Shown here: positions 5,884 through 11,483 of the stretch, piece by piece
Layout of the letters: each line of letters begins with the position of its first letter
Position numbering within the stretch: the first letter of the stretch is position 1
Assembly (NCBI GenBank): GCA_030530095.1
Contig: JAUMVO010000001.1
Span: 62,001-126,000 of the forward strand
Direction of reading: 5' to 3'
Source of the DNA: Clostridiaceae bacterium
Lineage (GTDB): Bacteria; Bacillota; Clostridia; Oscillospirales; Acutalibacteraceae
DNA: 64,000 nt
Translations under genes and position numbers: made by a program
The notes under the pieces: model-generated
What the model was told of the DNA's origin: nothing
Seen by the model: the letters and a program-made list of their open reading frames with translations, nothing else
The model's database searches: none

Positions 5884-5894
5884 GGATGTCAACC

Positions 5895-6947
5895 ATGATT
5901 GAGAGAAGAAAATCAAAAAAGGTGTATGCGGGTAACGTCGCAATAGGCGGCGACTCGAAAATAACCGTACAGTCTATGCTCAACGTACCCGCCGAGAACG
6001 TAGAGGGTAACGTTAAGCAGGCGCTCGAGCTTGAAGAAGCGGGTTGTGAGATAATACGTCTTACCGTTCCGAACAAGGAAGCGGTGAAGACGCTTTATGC
6101 GGTCAAAAACGCCGTTAAAATTCCCGTCGTAGCCGATATACATTTCGACTACAAATGCGCGCTTGAGAGCGTTGAGGCGGGAGTTGATAAAATCCGCATC
6201 AATCCCGGCAACATAGGCTCGGACGACCGTATCAAGGCCGTTGCCGATGCCTGTAAGCTACATAATATACCGATAAGAATCGGCGTAAATTCCGGCTCTC
6301 TGGAAAAGGATTTACTTGCGAAATACGGTTCGGTCACGCCCGAGGCGCTTTGCGAGAGCGCGCTTAGGCACGCTTCGCTTCTTGAAAAGTTTGACTTTGA
6401 CGATATAGTAATCTCGATAAAGTCGTCGAATGTACAGACCATGACGGCGGCTTACAGACTCATAGCCGACAAGTGCAGTTATCCGCTTCACCTCGGTGTT
6501 ACCGAAGCGGGCACGCACCGTATGGGTATGATAAAATCCGCGGCGGGCATAGGCGCGCTGCTGCTTGACGGTATAGGCGATACAATCCGTGTTTCGCTGA
6601 CCGCCGACCCCGTATCCGAGATTGCGGCGGGCTTCGATATACTCAAGGCGGTCGGTATCAAGACCGACTGTCCTCAGATTGTTTCCTGCCCGACCTGCGG
6701 CAGGACGAAAATTGACCTTATCGGTCTTGCCGAAAAGGTCGAAGCGGCGCTTGCAAACTGCAATAAGCCTATCAAGGTTGCGGTTATGGGCTGTGTAGTA
6801 AACGGACCCGGCGAAGCCAAAGAAGCCGACATAGGCGTAGCCGGAGGCGACGGCTGCGGAATGCTTTTCAGGCACGGCGAGGTCTTAAGAAAAGTTGACG
6901 AAAAAGATATAGTAGATGAATTGTTAAAGGAGATAGAATCCCTGTAA
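5895..6947 (+). CDS. ispG: 4-hydroxy-3-methylbut-2-enyl-diphosphate synthase
   Basis: Iron-sulfur enzyme of the MEP pathway converting MEcPP to HMBPP, so this operon holds two MEP steps (dxr and ispG). The 350-residue product has the TIM-barrel part (IGGDSKITVQSM, VPVVADIHFDYKCA, KIRINPGNIG). The C-terminal 4Fe-4S site is CPTCGRTKIDL plus GCVVNGPGEAKEADIG. An ATG at 5886 directly abuts the GAGG site. The ATG at 5895 has 9-nt spacing from GAGG and begins MIERRKSKKV as in homologues, so I chose it. Confidence 0.95.
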   Translation: MIERRKSKKVYAGNVAIGGDSKITVQSMLNVPAENVEGNVKQALELEEAGCEIIRLTVPNKEAVKTLYAVKNAVKIPVVADIHFDYKCALESVEAGVDKIRINPGNIGSDDRIKAVADACKLHNIPIRIGVNSGSLEKDLLAKYGSVTPEALCESALRHASLLEKFDFDDIVISIKSSNVQTMTAAYRLIADKCSYPLHLGVTEAGTHRMGMIKSAAGIGALLLDGIGDTIRVSLTADPVSEIAAGFDILKAVGIKTDCPQIVSCPTCGRTKIDLIGLAEKVEAALANCNKPIKVAVMGCVVNGPGEAKEADIGVAGGDGCGMLFRHGEVLRKVDEKDIVDELLKEIESL

Positions 6948-6959
6948 GGGAATTGGGAT

Positions 6960-9900
6960 ATGGCATTATTTTACGATTTGTTCAAGGATTTGCGGCAGGC
7001 TCTCGCGCCCTATGACAGAGCGCTTGAAAACGCCGAAATAATTTCGTGTACCCCCGATCTGCAGGCTTCAACGCTTACGTCGGAGGTGCGCTTTAATATA
7101 CTCTTAAAGGAAGAAACGCTCGACGCTATTGCAAAAATCATAGCCGATAAATATCAGCTTGAGAGCGCGGTGATAGAGCCGAGATTTGATAAAAGACTGC
7201 TTTCCAACAAGTACGATTCTCAGCTCGTTGAGATTATTAAGAGAAGAATTGTCGTTGCCAACGGCTATCTTAACGGCTGCGAATTCTGTTACGGCGGGGA
7301 TTTCTCGACTCTTGAGGTTAAGCTCGCGGGCGGCGGCAGGGAAGTGCTCTGCCAGAATAACTGTGAGAAAATCCTCGAAAGAGTTATCAGTGAGCGCTTC
7401 GGCGTAGAACTTAAGGTCAGCATATCTCAGCCCGCTCAGACCGAGAAGCCTTCGCTTGAGGAAATACAACAGCAGATTGACCGTGAAATACAAACCCGTG
7501 AAATCAAGAAGACTGAGGTTACCGCAAGCGTTATTGAGGAGGGCATACCCTATTATACCGACAGCCTTCGCGTTATCTACGGCAACAAGGTCAAGAGCAG
7601 ACCGGTTGAAATGTCGGAGATTAAGGATGACGACGACCGCGTTACCGTCTGGGGTAAGATATTCAGCGTTGAAGCAAAGCCCACCAAGAACGGCGACAAC
7701 TACCGCATTATATTCAAGCTGACCGACTACACGAGCTCACAGACCTGCTCGATTTTTGAAAAATCGGTTTATGTAAACGAACTGCTTGACAAGCTTACCG
7801 TCGGAGCTCACGTATTGCTTTCTGGCGGCAGGGATTACGACAGCTTCAGAGGCGAGATGGTAATACGCCCGAGAAGTATATGTCTCGTAACGCCTATCGA
7901 AAAGACCGACGACGAACCCGAAAAGAGAGTGGAATTACACCTTCATACCAATATGTCTCAGCTTGACGCCGTTACCCCGACCGCCGAGCTGGTCAAGCGT
8001 GCAATCAAATGGGGACACAGGGCCATCGCCATTACAGACCATGGCTGTGTTCAGGGCTTCCCCGAGGCTTGCGAGGCAGCAGGCGGTAAGATAAAAATTA
8101 TCTACGGCGTTGAGGGATATCTTGTCGACGACATAAATGAGCCCGAAATCCCGCTCAATTCCAAGCGTACATACCATATAACCATACTTGCCAAGAACAA
8201 CGTCGGTCTTAAGAATCTTTACAAACTGATTTCAATGTCGAATATCAAGTATTTTTATAAGAGACCGAGAATTTCCCGTTCGGAGCTTATCAGGCACAGA
8301 GAGGGATTGATTATCGGTTCTGCCTGTGAGCAGGGTGAGGTTTACAGAGCCGTCGTTACTAAAAAGAGCGATGAGGAATTGACGAATATCGCTTCCTTCT
8401 ACGACTATTTTGAAATTATGCCTGTCGGCAACAATCAGTTTATGATAAGGGCGCATTCCGACCCTGCATCGAAAAATCCCGAACAGTTTAAGGAATTCGA
8501 CGACGTTAAGAGCTTTGACGATATCAGAGCCTTCAACCGCAGGGTGATTGAGGTTGCCGATGCGCTGTCAAAGCCCGTTGTCGCTACGGGCGACGTGCAT
8601 TTCATCGACGAGAAGGATTCGGTTTACAGAGAGATCATTCAGCATCAGCAGGGTTTCAAGGACGCTTCAAATCAGGCTCCGCTTTATTTCAGAACTACCC
8701 GTGAGATGCTTGACGAATTTGCTTATCTCGGCGAGGATACCGCAAGAGAAATAGTTATTACAAATCCGAATAAGATTGCCGATAAAATCGAGATTATGCG
8801 TCCCTTCCCGAAGGGTACGTATCAGCCGTCAATCGAAGGCAGTGAGGAACAGCTTCGCAAAATCTGCTGGGACAAGGCGAAGGAATGGTACGAAAAGGAC
8901 GGCAAAGTTCCCGAGCTTGTTGAGAAACGGCTTAACAGAGAGCTTGACTCGATTATCGCAAACGGCTACGCGGTGCTTTACATAATCGCACAGAGACTGG
9001 TATGGGACTCAGAGGAGCATGGCTATCATGTCGGTTCGCGTGGCTCGGTCGGTTCGTCCTTCGTTGCTACAATGGCAGGTATTTCGGAGGTTAATCCTCT
9101 CGTTCCGCATTACCGCTGCCCGAAGTGCAACTATACCGAATTCTTTGAAAACGGCGAATACGGTTCGGGCTTTGACCTGCCGAAAAAGGCTTGTCCCGAA
9201 TGCGGAACCGATCTCATAAGAGACGGTCACGAAATCCCGTTTGAAACGTTCTTAGGCTTCCACGGCGACAAGGCTCCCGATATCGACCTTAACTTCTCGG
9301 GTGAATATCAGGGCAAGGCGCACCGCTATACCGAAGAACTGTTCGGTAAAACTCACGTTTTCAAGGCGGGTACTATCACGTCTATCGCCGACAAAACGGC
9401 TTACGGCTACGTCAAAAAGTATATTGAGGAAACTCAGTCGGAAGACGACAATACGCAGTCGCCTTCCGAGAATACGGATGCATATCCCGAGGAGGAAGAC
9501 AAACTTGTATTCAAGACTGAGAAAAAGCATATTCCCAAGGCTGAGGAGGACAGACTGACGCTCGGCTGTACCGGTATCAAACGATCCACAGGTCAGCATC
9601 CCGGCGGTATGGTTGTCATTCCCGATAATTATGAGGTTTACGACTTTACTCCCGTTCAGTATCCTGCGGACAAAACTGAGTCCGATATGGAGACTACGCA
9701 CTTTGATTTCAATTCGCTTCACGATACTATACTCAAGCTTGACGAACTCGGTCACGATGTTCCGACGCTCTACAAACATCTTGAGGATTTGACAGGAATT
9801 CCCGTTACCGAGGTTGATGTCTGCGACCCGAAGATTATAAAGCTTTGCACCAGTCCCGAGCCCTTAGGCGTTACCGCCGAGGAAATCGACTGTCAGACGG

Positions 9901-10808
9901 GCACGCTTTCAATCCCCGAGATGGGCACTCCGTTCGTTCGTCAGATGCTTCTTGAGGCTCAGCCGAAGAGCTTTTCGGACATGCTTCAGGTATCGGGACT
10001 TTCACACGGTACGGACGTATGGAACGGCAACGCTCAGGACTTGATAAAGGACGGCACCTGCACGATTTCGTCGGTTATAGGCACACGTGACAGCATTATG
10101 ACCTATCTTATGCACGCGGGACTTGAGCCGAGTATGGCGTTCAAGATAATGGAACTGACCCGTAAGGGTAAGGTTGCCAAGAACGGCTTCCCTGAGGGAG
10201 CCGAAGAGGCGATGCGCAAGTGCAACGTTCCCGAATGGTATATGGATTCCTGCCGTAAAATCAAATATATGTTCCCCAAGGCGCATGCGGCCGCCTACGT
10301 TTTTGCCGCCTTCCGTCTTGCGTGGTATAAGATATATAAGCCGCTTGAGTATTACACCGCTTTTTTGACGGTCCGCGGCGGCGACCTCGACGCGGCTACC
10401 ATAGTCAAGGGCAGAAAGGCCGTTGTTCAGAAAATGAAGGACATTTCGTTCAAGATGCAGAACAAGTCCGCTACCGCCAAGGAAGAGGATCAGTTCACCG
10501 CGCTTCAGGTTGCCAATGAAATGATGGCGAGAGGAATTGAACTGCTGCCGATTGATATCTATAAATCAAAGGCAAAGGAATATATTATTGAGGACGGTAA
10601 AATAAGGCTCCCGTTCAACGCGCTTTCGGGTGTCGGCGACAGTGCCGCCGAGCCAATGGAGGCTGCGAGAAACGACGGCAAGGGCGAGTTCGTTTCCATA
10701 GAGGATTTCGCCGACAGAGCAAAAGCGGGCAAGACCGTTATAGAAGCGCTCAGAGATTGCGGAGCCTTCGGTGATTTGCCCGAAAGCTCACAGCTTTCAT
10801 TATTCTGA
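6960..10808 (+). CDS. polC: DNA polymerase III alpha subunit, PolC type, lacking the exonuclease domain
   Basis: Replicative DNA polymerase of low-GC Gram-positives. Domain order in the 1282 residues: PolC N-terminal domains; OB fold (around RVTVWGKIFSVEAKP); PHP domain with VELHLHTNMSQLDAV, AITDHGCVQGF, IIGSACEQGE and ATGDVHF; polymerase core with the zinc module CPKCNYTEFF/CPECG, the catalytic PDIDLNFSGEYQ and LKLDELGHDVPT; and a terminal QLSLF clamp-binding peptide. The DnaQ-type exonuclease that normally interrupts the PHP domain is absent: YGVEGYLVDD runs within about 15 residues into YHITILAKNN. About 160 residues are missing relative to the usual 1440. A roughly 30-residue acidic insertion sits near 9430-9530. 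The frame is intact. Confidence 0.96.
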   Translation: MALFYDLFKDLRQALAPYDRALENAEIISCTPDLQASTLTSEVRFNILLKEETLDAIAKIIADKYQLESAVIEPRFDKRLLSNKYDSQLVEIIKRRIVVANGYLNGCEFCYGGDFSTLEVKLAGGGREVLCQNNCEKILERVISERFGVELKVSISQPAQTEKPSLEEIQQQIDREIQTREIKKTEVTASVIEEGIPYYTDSLRVIYGNKVKSRPVEMSEIKDDDDRVTVWGKIFSVEAKPTKNGDNYRIIFKLTDYTSSQTCSIFEKSVYVNELLDKLTVGAHVLLSGGRDYDSFRGEMVIRPRSICLVTPIEKTDDEPEKRVELHLHTNMSQLDAVTPTAELVKRAIKWGHRAIAITDHGCVQGFPEACEAAGGKIKIIYGVEGYLVDDINEPEIPLNSKRTYHITILAKNNVGLKNLYKLISMSNIKYFYKRPRISRSELIRHREGLIIGSACEQGEVYRAVVTKKSDEELTNIASFYDYFEIMPVGNNQFMIRAHSDPASKNPEQFKEFDDVKSFDDIRAFNRRVIEVADALSKPVVATGDVHFIDEKDSVYREIIQHQQGFKDASNQAPLYFRTTREMLDEFAYLGEDTAREIVITNPNKIADKIEIMRPFPKGTYQPSIEGSEEQLRKICWDKAKEWYEKDGKVPELVEKRLNRELDSIIANGYAVLYIIAQRLVWDSEEHGYHVGSRGSVGSSFVATMAGISEVNPLVPHYRCPKCNYTEFFENGEYGSGFDLPKKACPECGTDLIRDGHEIPFETFLGFHGDKAPDIDLNFSGEYQGKAHRYTEELFGKTHVFKAGTITSIADKTAYGYVKKYIEETQSEDDNTQSPSENTDAYPEEEDKLVFKTEKKHIPKAEEDRLTLGCTGIKRSTGQHPGGMVVIPDNYEVYDFTPVQYPADKTESDMETTHFDFNSLHDTILKLDELGHDVPTLYKHLEDLTGIPVTEVDVCDPKIIKLCTSPEPLGVTAEEIDCQTGTLSIPEMGTPFVRQMLLEAQPKSFSDMLQVSGLSHGTDVWNGNAQDLIKDGTCTISSVIGTRDSIMTYLMHAGLEPSMAFKIMELTRKGKVAKNGFPEGAEEAMRKCNVPEWYMDSCRKIKYMFPKAHAAAYVFAAFRLAWYKIYKPLEYYTAFLTVRGGDLDAATIVKGRKAVVQKMKDISFKMQNKSATAKEEDQFTALQVANEMMARGIELLPIDIYKSKAKEYIIEDGKIRLPFNALSGVGDSAAEPMEAARNDGKGEFVSIEDFADRAKAGKTVIEALRDCGAFGDLPESSQLSLF

Positions 10809-10823
10809 GGAAAGAGTGATAAT

Positions 10824-11483
10824 ATGAAAAACGGAAAATCGCAAAAAATCGTATGCATTATCCTGATTGCTGTTTTTGCCGTCGGTATGTTTCTGACGGG
10901 CTACAGTGCTTCAAAGCTTGCGTTTGAAAAACACATAAAAGGAACCTTCGTGCACGAGTATGCAGTTGTTTCCCATCTTGAGGAAAACGGTGCCGGAGGC
11001 GACGATTACATTATCTTCTTTAATGCCGAAGGAAACCGATACGAAAAGGTGTACGGAAATGCTGACAGCAAGACTTATATCGGCGAAACGCTTGATTTGT
11101 ACTACGAGCAGGGTAATCCCGAGAATTATTATATTTTCAGCGGCAATCTCAACAAATGGCTGCTTGCCGAGGGTATAATTCTTGCATTGGCAGCGCTTAT
11201 TATTCTTGCCGTAATACTTGTCCCCGTAATCGTTAAGCACAATCTTATCAAGGGAAACAAATGGGCTATGTGCAAGGTGATTAAGCTGAAAAAGGACGGC
11301 AAAAGAACCGTACGCATCTGCTGCGACAGTTCAAAATTCAAAAGCCGCAAGGGAAAGCCATTTATCAGCGCTTCTGTTAAAAAGTCAGCTCTTCCCGGTA
11401 ACATTAAAGAAAGCTCGCTGACGGTTTATTACAGTGAGAAAAACCCGAATATCTATTTTGTTGATACTGATAAAATATCATAA
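10824..11483 (+). CDS. Two-pass membrane protein, DUF3592-like, unknown function
   Basis: The 219-residue protein has one hydrophobic helix at the N-terminus (IVCIILIAVFAVGMFLTGY) and a second in the middle (GIILALAALIILAVILVPV). A roughly 85-residue extracytoplasmic segment lies between them and a basic C-terminal domain follows. The extracytoplasmic part contains the YIGETLDLYYEQGNPENYYI pattern seen in DUF3592-type membrane proteins, which is only a weak assignment. It begins 15 nt after polC behind AGGAAAGAG, so it is probably co-transcribed with the next genes. No catalytic residues were recognised. Confidence 0.7.
   Translation: MKNGKSQKIVCIILIAVFAVGMFLTGYSASKLAFEKHIKGTFVHEYAVVSHLEENGAGGDDYIIFFNAEGNRYEKVYGNADSKTYIGETLDLYYEQGNPENYYIFSGNLNKWLLAEGIILALAALIILAVILVPVIVKHNLIKGNKWAMCKVIKLKKDGKRTVRICCDSSKFKSRKGKPFISASVKKSALPGNIKESSLTVYYSEKNPNIYFVDTDKIS

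Follow-up and report, generated by a model that had tools for sequence, protein, structure and literature searches.

Which nuclease would proofread for a replicase that lacks the exonuclease domain of its kind? The question is raised by a 64,000-nucleotide stretch of a Clostridiaceae bacterium genome (contig JAUMVO010000001.1, positions 62,001 to 126,000; hereafter, the window), in which polC, the gene for a PolC-type DNA polymerase III alpha subunit, codes for a protein without the DnaQ-type 3'-5' exonuclease that is typically inserted in the PHP domain of PolC. Such PolCs are called exo-less here, and those with the insert exo+. The most likely remaining proofreader of an exo-less PolC is, in our opinion, its own PHP domain, a reading to which we would assign a probability of about 0.6.

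Absence of the exonuclease domain from PolC

The polC open reading frame (ORF) translates without interruption, and its product scores above the cut-offs of two curated PolC models (NF001688, 1443 bits against 873; TIGR01405, 1319 bits against 1043). Pfam recognizes PHP, Pol3, finger and HhH_6 domains in it, while PF11490 matches residues 87-184 at 25.8 bits, just below its cut-off of 26.3. The original prediction, made from the sequence of the window, was that this PolC lacks the exonuclease but is otherwise intact, and both parts are borne out. Only 20 residues link the PHP ligands E385 and H406, and no RNase_T or other exonuclease domain is found by Pfam at E up to 0.1 in this loop or elsewhere in the ORF; a hidden exonuclease in another part of the chain is thus rejected. 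All nine PHP ligands (HHDHEHCDH), the palm aspartates, the zinc cysteines and the terminal QLSLF are present. The four cysteines of the zinc module do not vary across 20 aligned sequences of the window's group, and the palm aspartates are kept in all 139 related PolCs described below. The genome also encodes DnaE1, a second C-family polymerase, and therefore has the known exo-less variant, defined by a PolC lacking the Exo insertion alongside DnaE1.

The alignment of the window PolC with 3f2b, a Geobacillus PolC engineered to a delta-N delta-Exo form, runs through the junction uninterrupted; with exo-containing 9qpc the alignment breaks into separate stretches. The remaining domains follow the same order in these enzymes, the engineered 3f2b sharing the delta-Exo layout as well. 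Polymerization does not depend on the insert, since a delta-N delta-Exo PolC engineered from that of S. aureus polymerizes fast (kpol 330 per s, in the available text of PMC3656037).

The gap is not an assembly deletion, because the same architecture recurs in five congeners (G640, G265, G540, G596 and G237) and in L208, a named metagenome-assembled genome (MAG) whose PolC is 94% identical to that of the window. The closest named neighbours of the window PolC are Clostridia MAGs, several of them, by title, from rumen, rabbit gut or goat gut. Nor is a paralogue or transferred copy favoured as the general case: an ispG-like ORF adjoins polC in 70 of the 75 exo-less loci and in 60 of the 63 that are exo+ (contig ends truncate a number of these loci), and the polC of the window is therefore the orthologous gene.

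Recurrence of the exo-less architecture

The original prediction left room for exo-less PolC being undescribed, which is not so: the architecture was reported by Timinskas 2013 (PMC3919608) and is not new. In the available part of that paper, PolCs without the Exo insertion amount to 6%, all but one of them in Clostridia or Negativicutes, and to 16% within PolC+DnaE1 systems, the commonest PolC architecture (86%) being exo+. The window PolC resembles those exo-less proteins in its OB domain, uninterrupted PHP, Pol3 and HhH regions and in the presence of DnaE1 in the genome, and is a further member from a gut-type MAG lineage. The same part of PMC3919608 contains no loss history, no DnaQ census and no comparison of PHP between the two states, which are what is new here. 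It calls replication and proofreading in PolC+DnaE1 bacteria experimentally uncharacterized, and the available portion of a 2026 survey by the same authors (PMC12926913) reports no experiment on either. Exo-less PolC goes unmentioned in the accessible text of PMC3774996, which deals with PolC in relation to mismatch repair, and nothing on repeated loss of the PolC exonuclease appears in the full-text literature searched, which leaves most subscription journals outside its coverage.

With the PHP region of the window PolC as query, an uninterrupted match was obtained in at least 122 of the 398 genomes of its family, a lower bound, as some exo-less members match weakly or in split form (e.g., G594). 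Such a match is also present in 51 of 392 genomes of the class (completeness of 95% or more); the 51 belong to ten families, 48 of them lie outside the window's own family, and alignment shows every one of these 48 to be exo-less. Split matches would make G433, G594 and G653 exo+, but the exonuclease part of the profile is unmatched in their PolC frames of 1206, 1290 and 1325 residues (G594 alone was read in sequence). Conversely, the PolC of Carboxydothermus islandicus (L232), which match length would make exo-less, is exo+ by alignment.

A set of 139 related PolCs, chosen from high-scoring or uninterrupted matches and not at random, is sharply bimodal in the length of the segment that begins at E385 and ends at residue 407, which measures 19-40 residues in 76 exo-less and 198-220 residues in 63 exo+ proteins, with no intermediates. 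On a FastTree phylogeny of 999 core columns, which exclude the insert, 12 state changes are required if the midpoint root is exo+, whereas 200 label shuffles require 46 on average and never fewer than 38; an IQ-TREE phylogeny of 91 rows requires 14. A single ancient loss, modelled as one exo-less clade (45 of the 91 rows), is rejected, with a log-likelihood lower by 1117 and p-AU (approximately unbiased test) of 5.6e-32. Members of both states form joint groups with support of 1.00 on the core tree in genera g263, g162 and g168, and phylogenetically independent exo+/exo-less pairs number ten on well-supported branches and 14 on all branches (81 rows). The exonuclease state has thus changed about 10-14 times in the window's family, a count that by itself does not tell gain from loss. 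Exo+ is taken as ancestral mainly because it is the commonest PolC architecture; the exo+ outgroup rows are the top scorers of an order-level PolC profile search, a sampling that favours exo+, and the class-wide search yielded an exo-less PolC in G018, which belongs to the order. Repeated loss is the likeliest history.

Regain of the exonuclease from elsewhere in some lineages is not needed to explain these patterns, although it may have occurred in individual cases. It would accord with the free exonuclease tree, which has just 29 of 60 splits in common with the core tree, and with the PHP-only FastTree, in which the exo+ PolCs L142, L171 and L175 group with other exo+ PolCs (support 0.55, 0.93 and 0.81), apart from their neighbours in the polymerase tree. 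However, vertical grouping is not rejected by the exonuclease data (p-AU 0.64-0.74, three groups) or by the PHP-only data (p-AU 0.94 for g263, 0.89 for g232 and 0.95 for g237), and g162 is already together in the latter; moreover, the trees constrained to vertical groups had a higher likelihood and had been missed by the free quick search. Genome reduction is rejected as the cause of loss: exo-less genomes are smaller in raw numbers (a median of 1.9 Mb against 2.2 Mb for exo+; p 0.011; 45 and 36 genomes, rounded sizes), but the difference is gone over phylogenetically independent pairs.

Candidate proofreaders

PHP-proofreading replicases are recognized by nine metal ligands, HHDHEH[C/H]DH. 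All nine are complete in the 76 exo-less PolCs of the related set and in the 48 from nine other families, so that the catalytic aspartate and the full ligand set are intact in 124 of 124. In the window PolC this aspartate is D545, which aligns with Asp226 of Mycobacterium tuberculosis (Mtb) DnaE1 (index 220 of 5lew, the native number being taken as +6 from D17/D23). As described in the available text of PMC5636811, Asp226 is the proposed water-activating residue, D226N abolishes the PHP exonuclease, and the PolC of Geobacillus kaustophilus (Gka), in which one PHP ligand is mutated, shows no exonuclease activity. The two solved PolCs, 3f2b and 9qpc, carry Asn at this position, and their natural enzymes differ from the window PolC also in having a DnaQ domain in the PHP loop. 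According to the same text, the DnaQ domain of PolC occupies a loop which, in Mtb, borders the groove leading to the PHP site; the corresponding loop has 29 residues in Mtb, 18 in Thermus aquaticus and 9 in E. coli, and the loops of exo-less PolCs, at about 15-40 residues, lie in or slightly above that range. The likeness to the PHP-proofreading DnaE1 of M. tuberculosis and Thermus extends to the nine-ligand site, the shortness of the loop that connects ligand 5 with ligand 6 and the lack of an exonuclease domain in the chain. DnaE1 differs in its OB domain, located toward the C-terminal side, and in having a C-terminal domain (CTD; available part of PMC3919608). Exonuclease activity has been demonstrated for DnaE1 of these organisms (for Thermus, see the accessible part of PMC10850973), whereas for the window PolC it is predicted from retention of the active site.

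The following mechanism may be proposed. Comparison with exo+ relatives indicates that the orthologous PolC of this uncultured gut/rumen-type Clostridia bacterium lost its DnaQ-type insert. The loop left between E385 and H406 is within the range of DnaE1 PHP-proofreaders, a length that may be functionally meaningful. The PHP domain would then serve as a 3'-5' exonuclease dependent on zinc, like that of the DnaE1 enzymes from Thermus and mycobacteria; the intact PHP of the cell's own DnaE1 and MutSL are probable further safeguards. Because clostridial PolC, unlike the two solved PolCs, still had an intact PHP site, its exonuclease may have been expendable and so lost many times.

It should be noted that several observations weigh against PHP proofreading. 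Retention of the site is not specific to exonuclease loss, because it is equally complete in all 63 exo+ PolCs of the related set; the same is true of 11 of 11 exo+ controls fetched with the other-family set (one, G394, being a genome already counted). Breakage of the site, at 3 of 132 exo+ and 0 of 124 exo-less PolCs, does not differ significantly (Fisher p 0.25). Tighter constraint on PHP after loss is unsupported, the PHP/Pol ratio having a median of 1.48 in 35 exo-less pairs and 1.35 in 26 exo+ pairs (p 0.60). One PolC, that of Gka, is reported to be without PHP exonuclease activity (PMC5636811), and the literature searched reports such activity for no PolC. The AlphaFold model of the window PolC, poor outside OB and PHP (mean predicted local distance difference test score 72, predicted template modelling score 0.49), adds little and says nothing on activity.

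Among named loci, 3 of 59 exo+ PolCs deviate in PHP ligands (L236 in one, L271 and L274 in many), all three retaining the exonuclease DxE and HxxxxD motifs. The badly broken sites of L271 (NHDTTSNDH) and L274 (NHDTTANNH), both clostridial, are the reverse of the window's case. None of the 19 named exo-less loci that cover the whole PHP site deviates, at least three of them repeating genomes already counted; L223 and L227 cover the site only in part.

The original prediction had offered three options for this replicase, namely PHP proofreading, a separate DnaQ-like subunit and lower fidelity. Complete retention of the active site favours the first, while a census of PF00929 matches speaks against the second. 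It covered 36 exo-less and 34 exo+ genomes, all read in sequence, and ten genomes taken as PolC-less (six of these by profile), 80 in total. The window genome keeps one PF00929 match, a DEDD-type exonuclease of 300 residues, which scores best against KapD but at 88.7 bits stays below the cut-off of that model (169). Frames of about 280-380 residues with a match are present in exo+ and exo-less genomes alike, and in 31 of the 34 exo+ genomes one or more matches occur apart from PolC itself. Four of the 36 exo-less genomes have no match, 23 have one and nine have more than one, some of them high (G499, 128 bits; G286, 117; G448, 110). In a further 56 exo-less genomes, four of which (G535, G592, G481 and G438) are assigned by match pattern only, 44 are without a match, including G812, a single contig scored as 100% complete. 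The match is thus absent from 48 of 92 exo-less genomes, as judged by a single model that would miss an unrelated nuclease, and there is no general DnaQ replacement among them. That a dedicated subunit proofreads in trans is very improbable, because the lone match in the window genome is KapD-like, its type is shared with exo+ genomes and about half of the exo-less genomes have none; this holds even though the exonuclease part of PolC is matched at 146-156 bits by a protein in each of three relatives that lack PolC (205 residues in G364, 202 in G360 and a 469-residue frame in G332). Short PF00929 frames, of 203 and 214 residues, also occur in G462 and G532. The third option, that the replicase does not proofread and that fidelity comes from base selection and mismatch repair at a raised mutation rate, is retained as a rival, albeit a rather improbable one. 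It accords with MutS1 and MutL being over cut-off in 78 and 77 of the 80 genomes, the window's included, and each in 34 of the 36 exo-less ones, where one miss, G300, has a truncated MutS. The extreme case is genus g224 (G465, G370, G535 and G592), with small genomes of 0.8-1.2 Mb and an exo-less PolC. In its four drafts (70-97% complete) neither a PF00929 match nor MutS1 over cut-off was found; the three genomes that are 91-97% complete have one weak MutS-like match each and the 70%-complete one has none, and MutL, searched for in G465 only, was not found. Nevertheless, the PHP site is complete in both g224 PolCs that were read (L124 and L125), a combination that would be hard to sustain were PHP idle.

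It is also conceivable, though unlikely, that DnaE1 is the main replicase, with its own PHP proofreading, and that PolC has a minor role in which loss of the exonuclease could be afforded. This possibility of DnaE1 as main replicase was raised by Timinskas 2013 (PMC3919608, available part). DnaE1 is over cut-off in all 28 genomes checked, and its PHP site is intact in 26 of them, including the window's; of the other two, one has an H to Y change and one is a frame without the N-terminal part. Six genomes of the window's family, from six genera (G332, G302, G364, G360, G342 and G333; 95-99% complete), have DnaE1 and, by profile, no PolC; DnaE1 can therefore suffice, and PolC is dispensable in principle. 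Within the order, family f10 (e.g., G009, G034 and G053) gives weak PolC-profile matches, with best E mostly about 1e-33 to 1e-38, which suggests another PolC loss among the sampled members. However, the exo-less PolC is not decaying, because its palm aspartates (76/76 and 48/48 in the two sets), its clamp-type C-terminal peptide (76/76 and 40/48, two of the eight misses looking like cut frames) and a low ratio of nonsynonymous to synonymous substitutions (dN/dS) are kept. In the Pol region, dN/dS is 0.011-0.046 in the 11 of 12 exo-less pairs with computable dS, the range for exo+ pairs being 0.006-0.078 (10 of 12); these values are rough, synonymous sites often being near saturation. To judge from them, exo-less PolC is under purifying selection and is well kept where it is kept.

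If PHP proofreading is accepted, a broader view may tentatively be put forward, for which we consider the odds to be slightly less than even. The exonuclease of clostridial PolC would be a redundant second proofreader, deleted at least ten separate times, and with each deletion editing would have reverted to the zinc-dependent PHP site, the older of the two, in the same polymerase. In some lineages, such as g224, from which DnaQ-type proteins and MutS1 are apparently gone, PHP would be the only candidate replication-fidelity nuclease left. The repeated losses provide natural matched pairs, some within a genus, that differ in one replicase domain, and make PHP proofreading by PolC directly testable by biochemistry and mutation spectra.

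Layout of the locus

Directly downstream of polC, at 10824-11483, is a 219-residue ORF without an NCBIfam match at E 0.001. The features of polC and its upstream neighbour are listed in Table 1.

Table 1. Positions in the window of polC, the regions of its product and the adjoining ispG
Feature	Position	Strand	Basis
polC, exo-less PolC-type DNA polymerase III alpha subunit, 1282 residues	6960..10808	+	ORF translation, PolC models
PolC N-terminal region, about residues 1-200	6960..7559	+	sub-threshold PF11490 (PolC N-terminus II)
OB domain, about residues 215-318, limits approximate	7602..7913	+	3f2b alignment from residue 218; OB-like part of model
PHP part 1, up to E385; ligands H327, H329, D360, H361, E385	7923..8114	+	PF02811 residues 325-480; ligand columns
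Junction loop, 20 residues (386-405), exonuclease site of other PolCs	8115..8174	+	alignment
PHP part 2, end approximate; ligands H406, C456, D545, H547	8175..8759	+	alignments
Pol3 alpha region, PDIDLNFS aspartates D774, D776	8850..9752	+	PF07733 residues 631-931
Zinc module C720, C723, C745, C748	9117..9203	+	invariant cysteines in alignment
Helix-hairpin-helix region	10533..10781	+	PF14579 residues 1192-1274
C-terminal clamp-binding peptide QLSLF	10791..10805	+	sequence
ispG, upstream neighbour marking the orthologous polC site	5886..6947	+	model match, locus comparison

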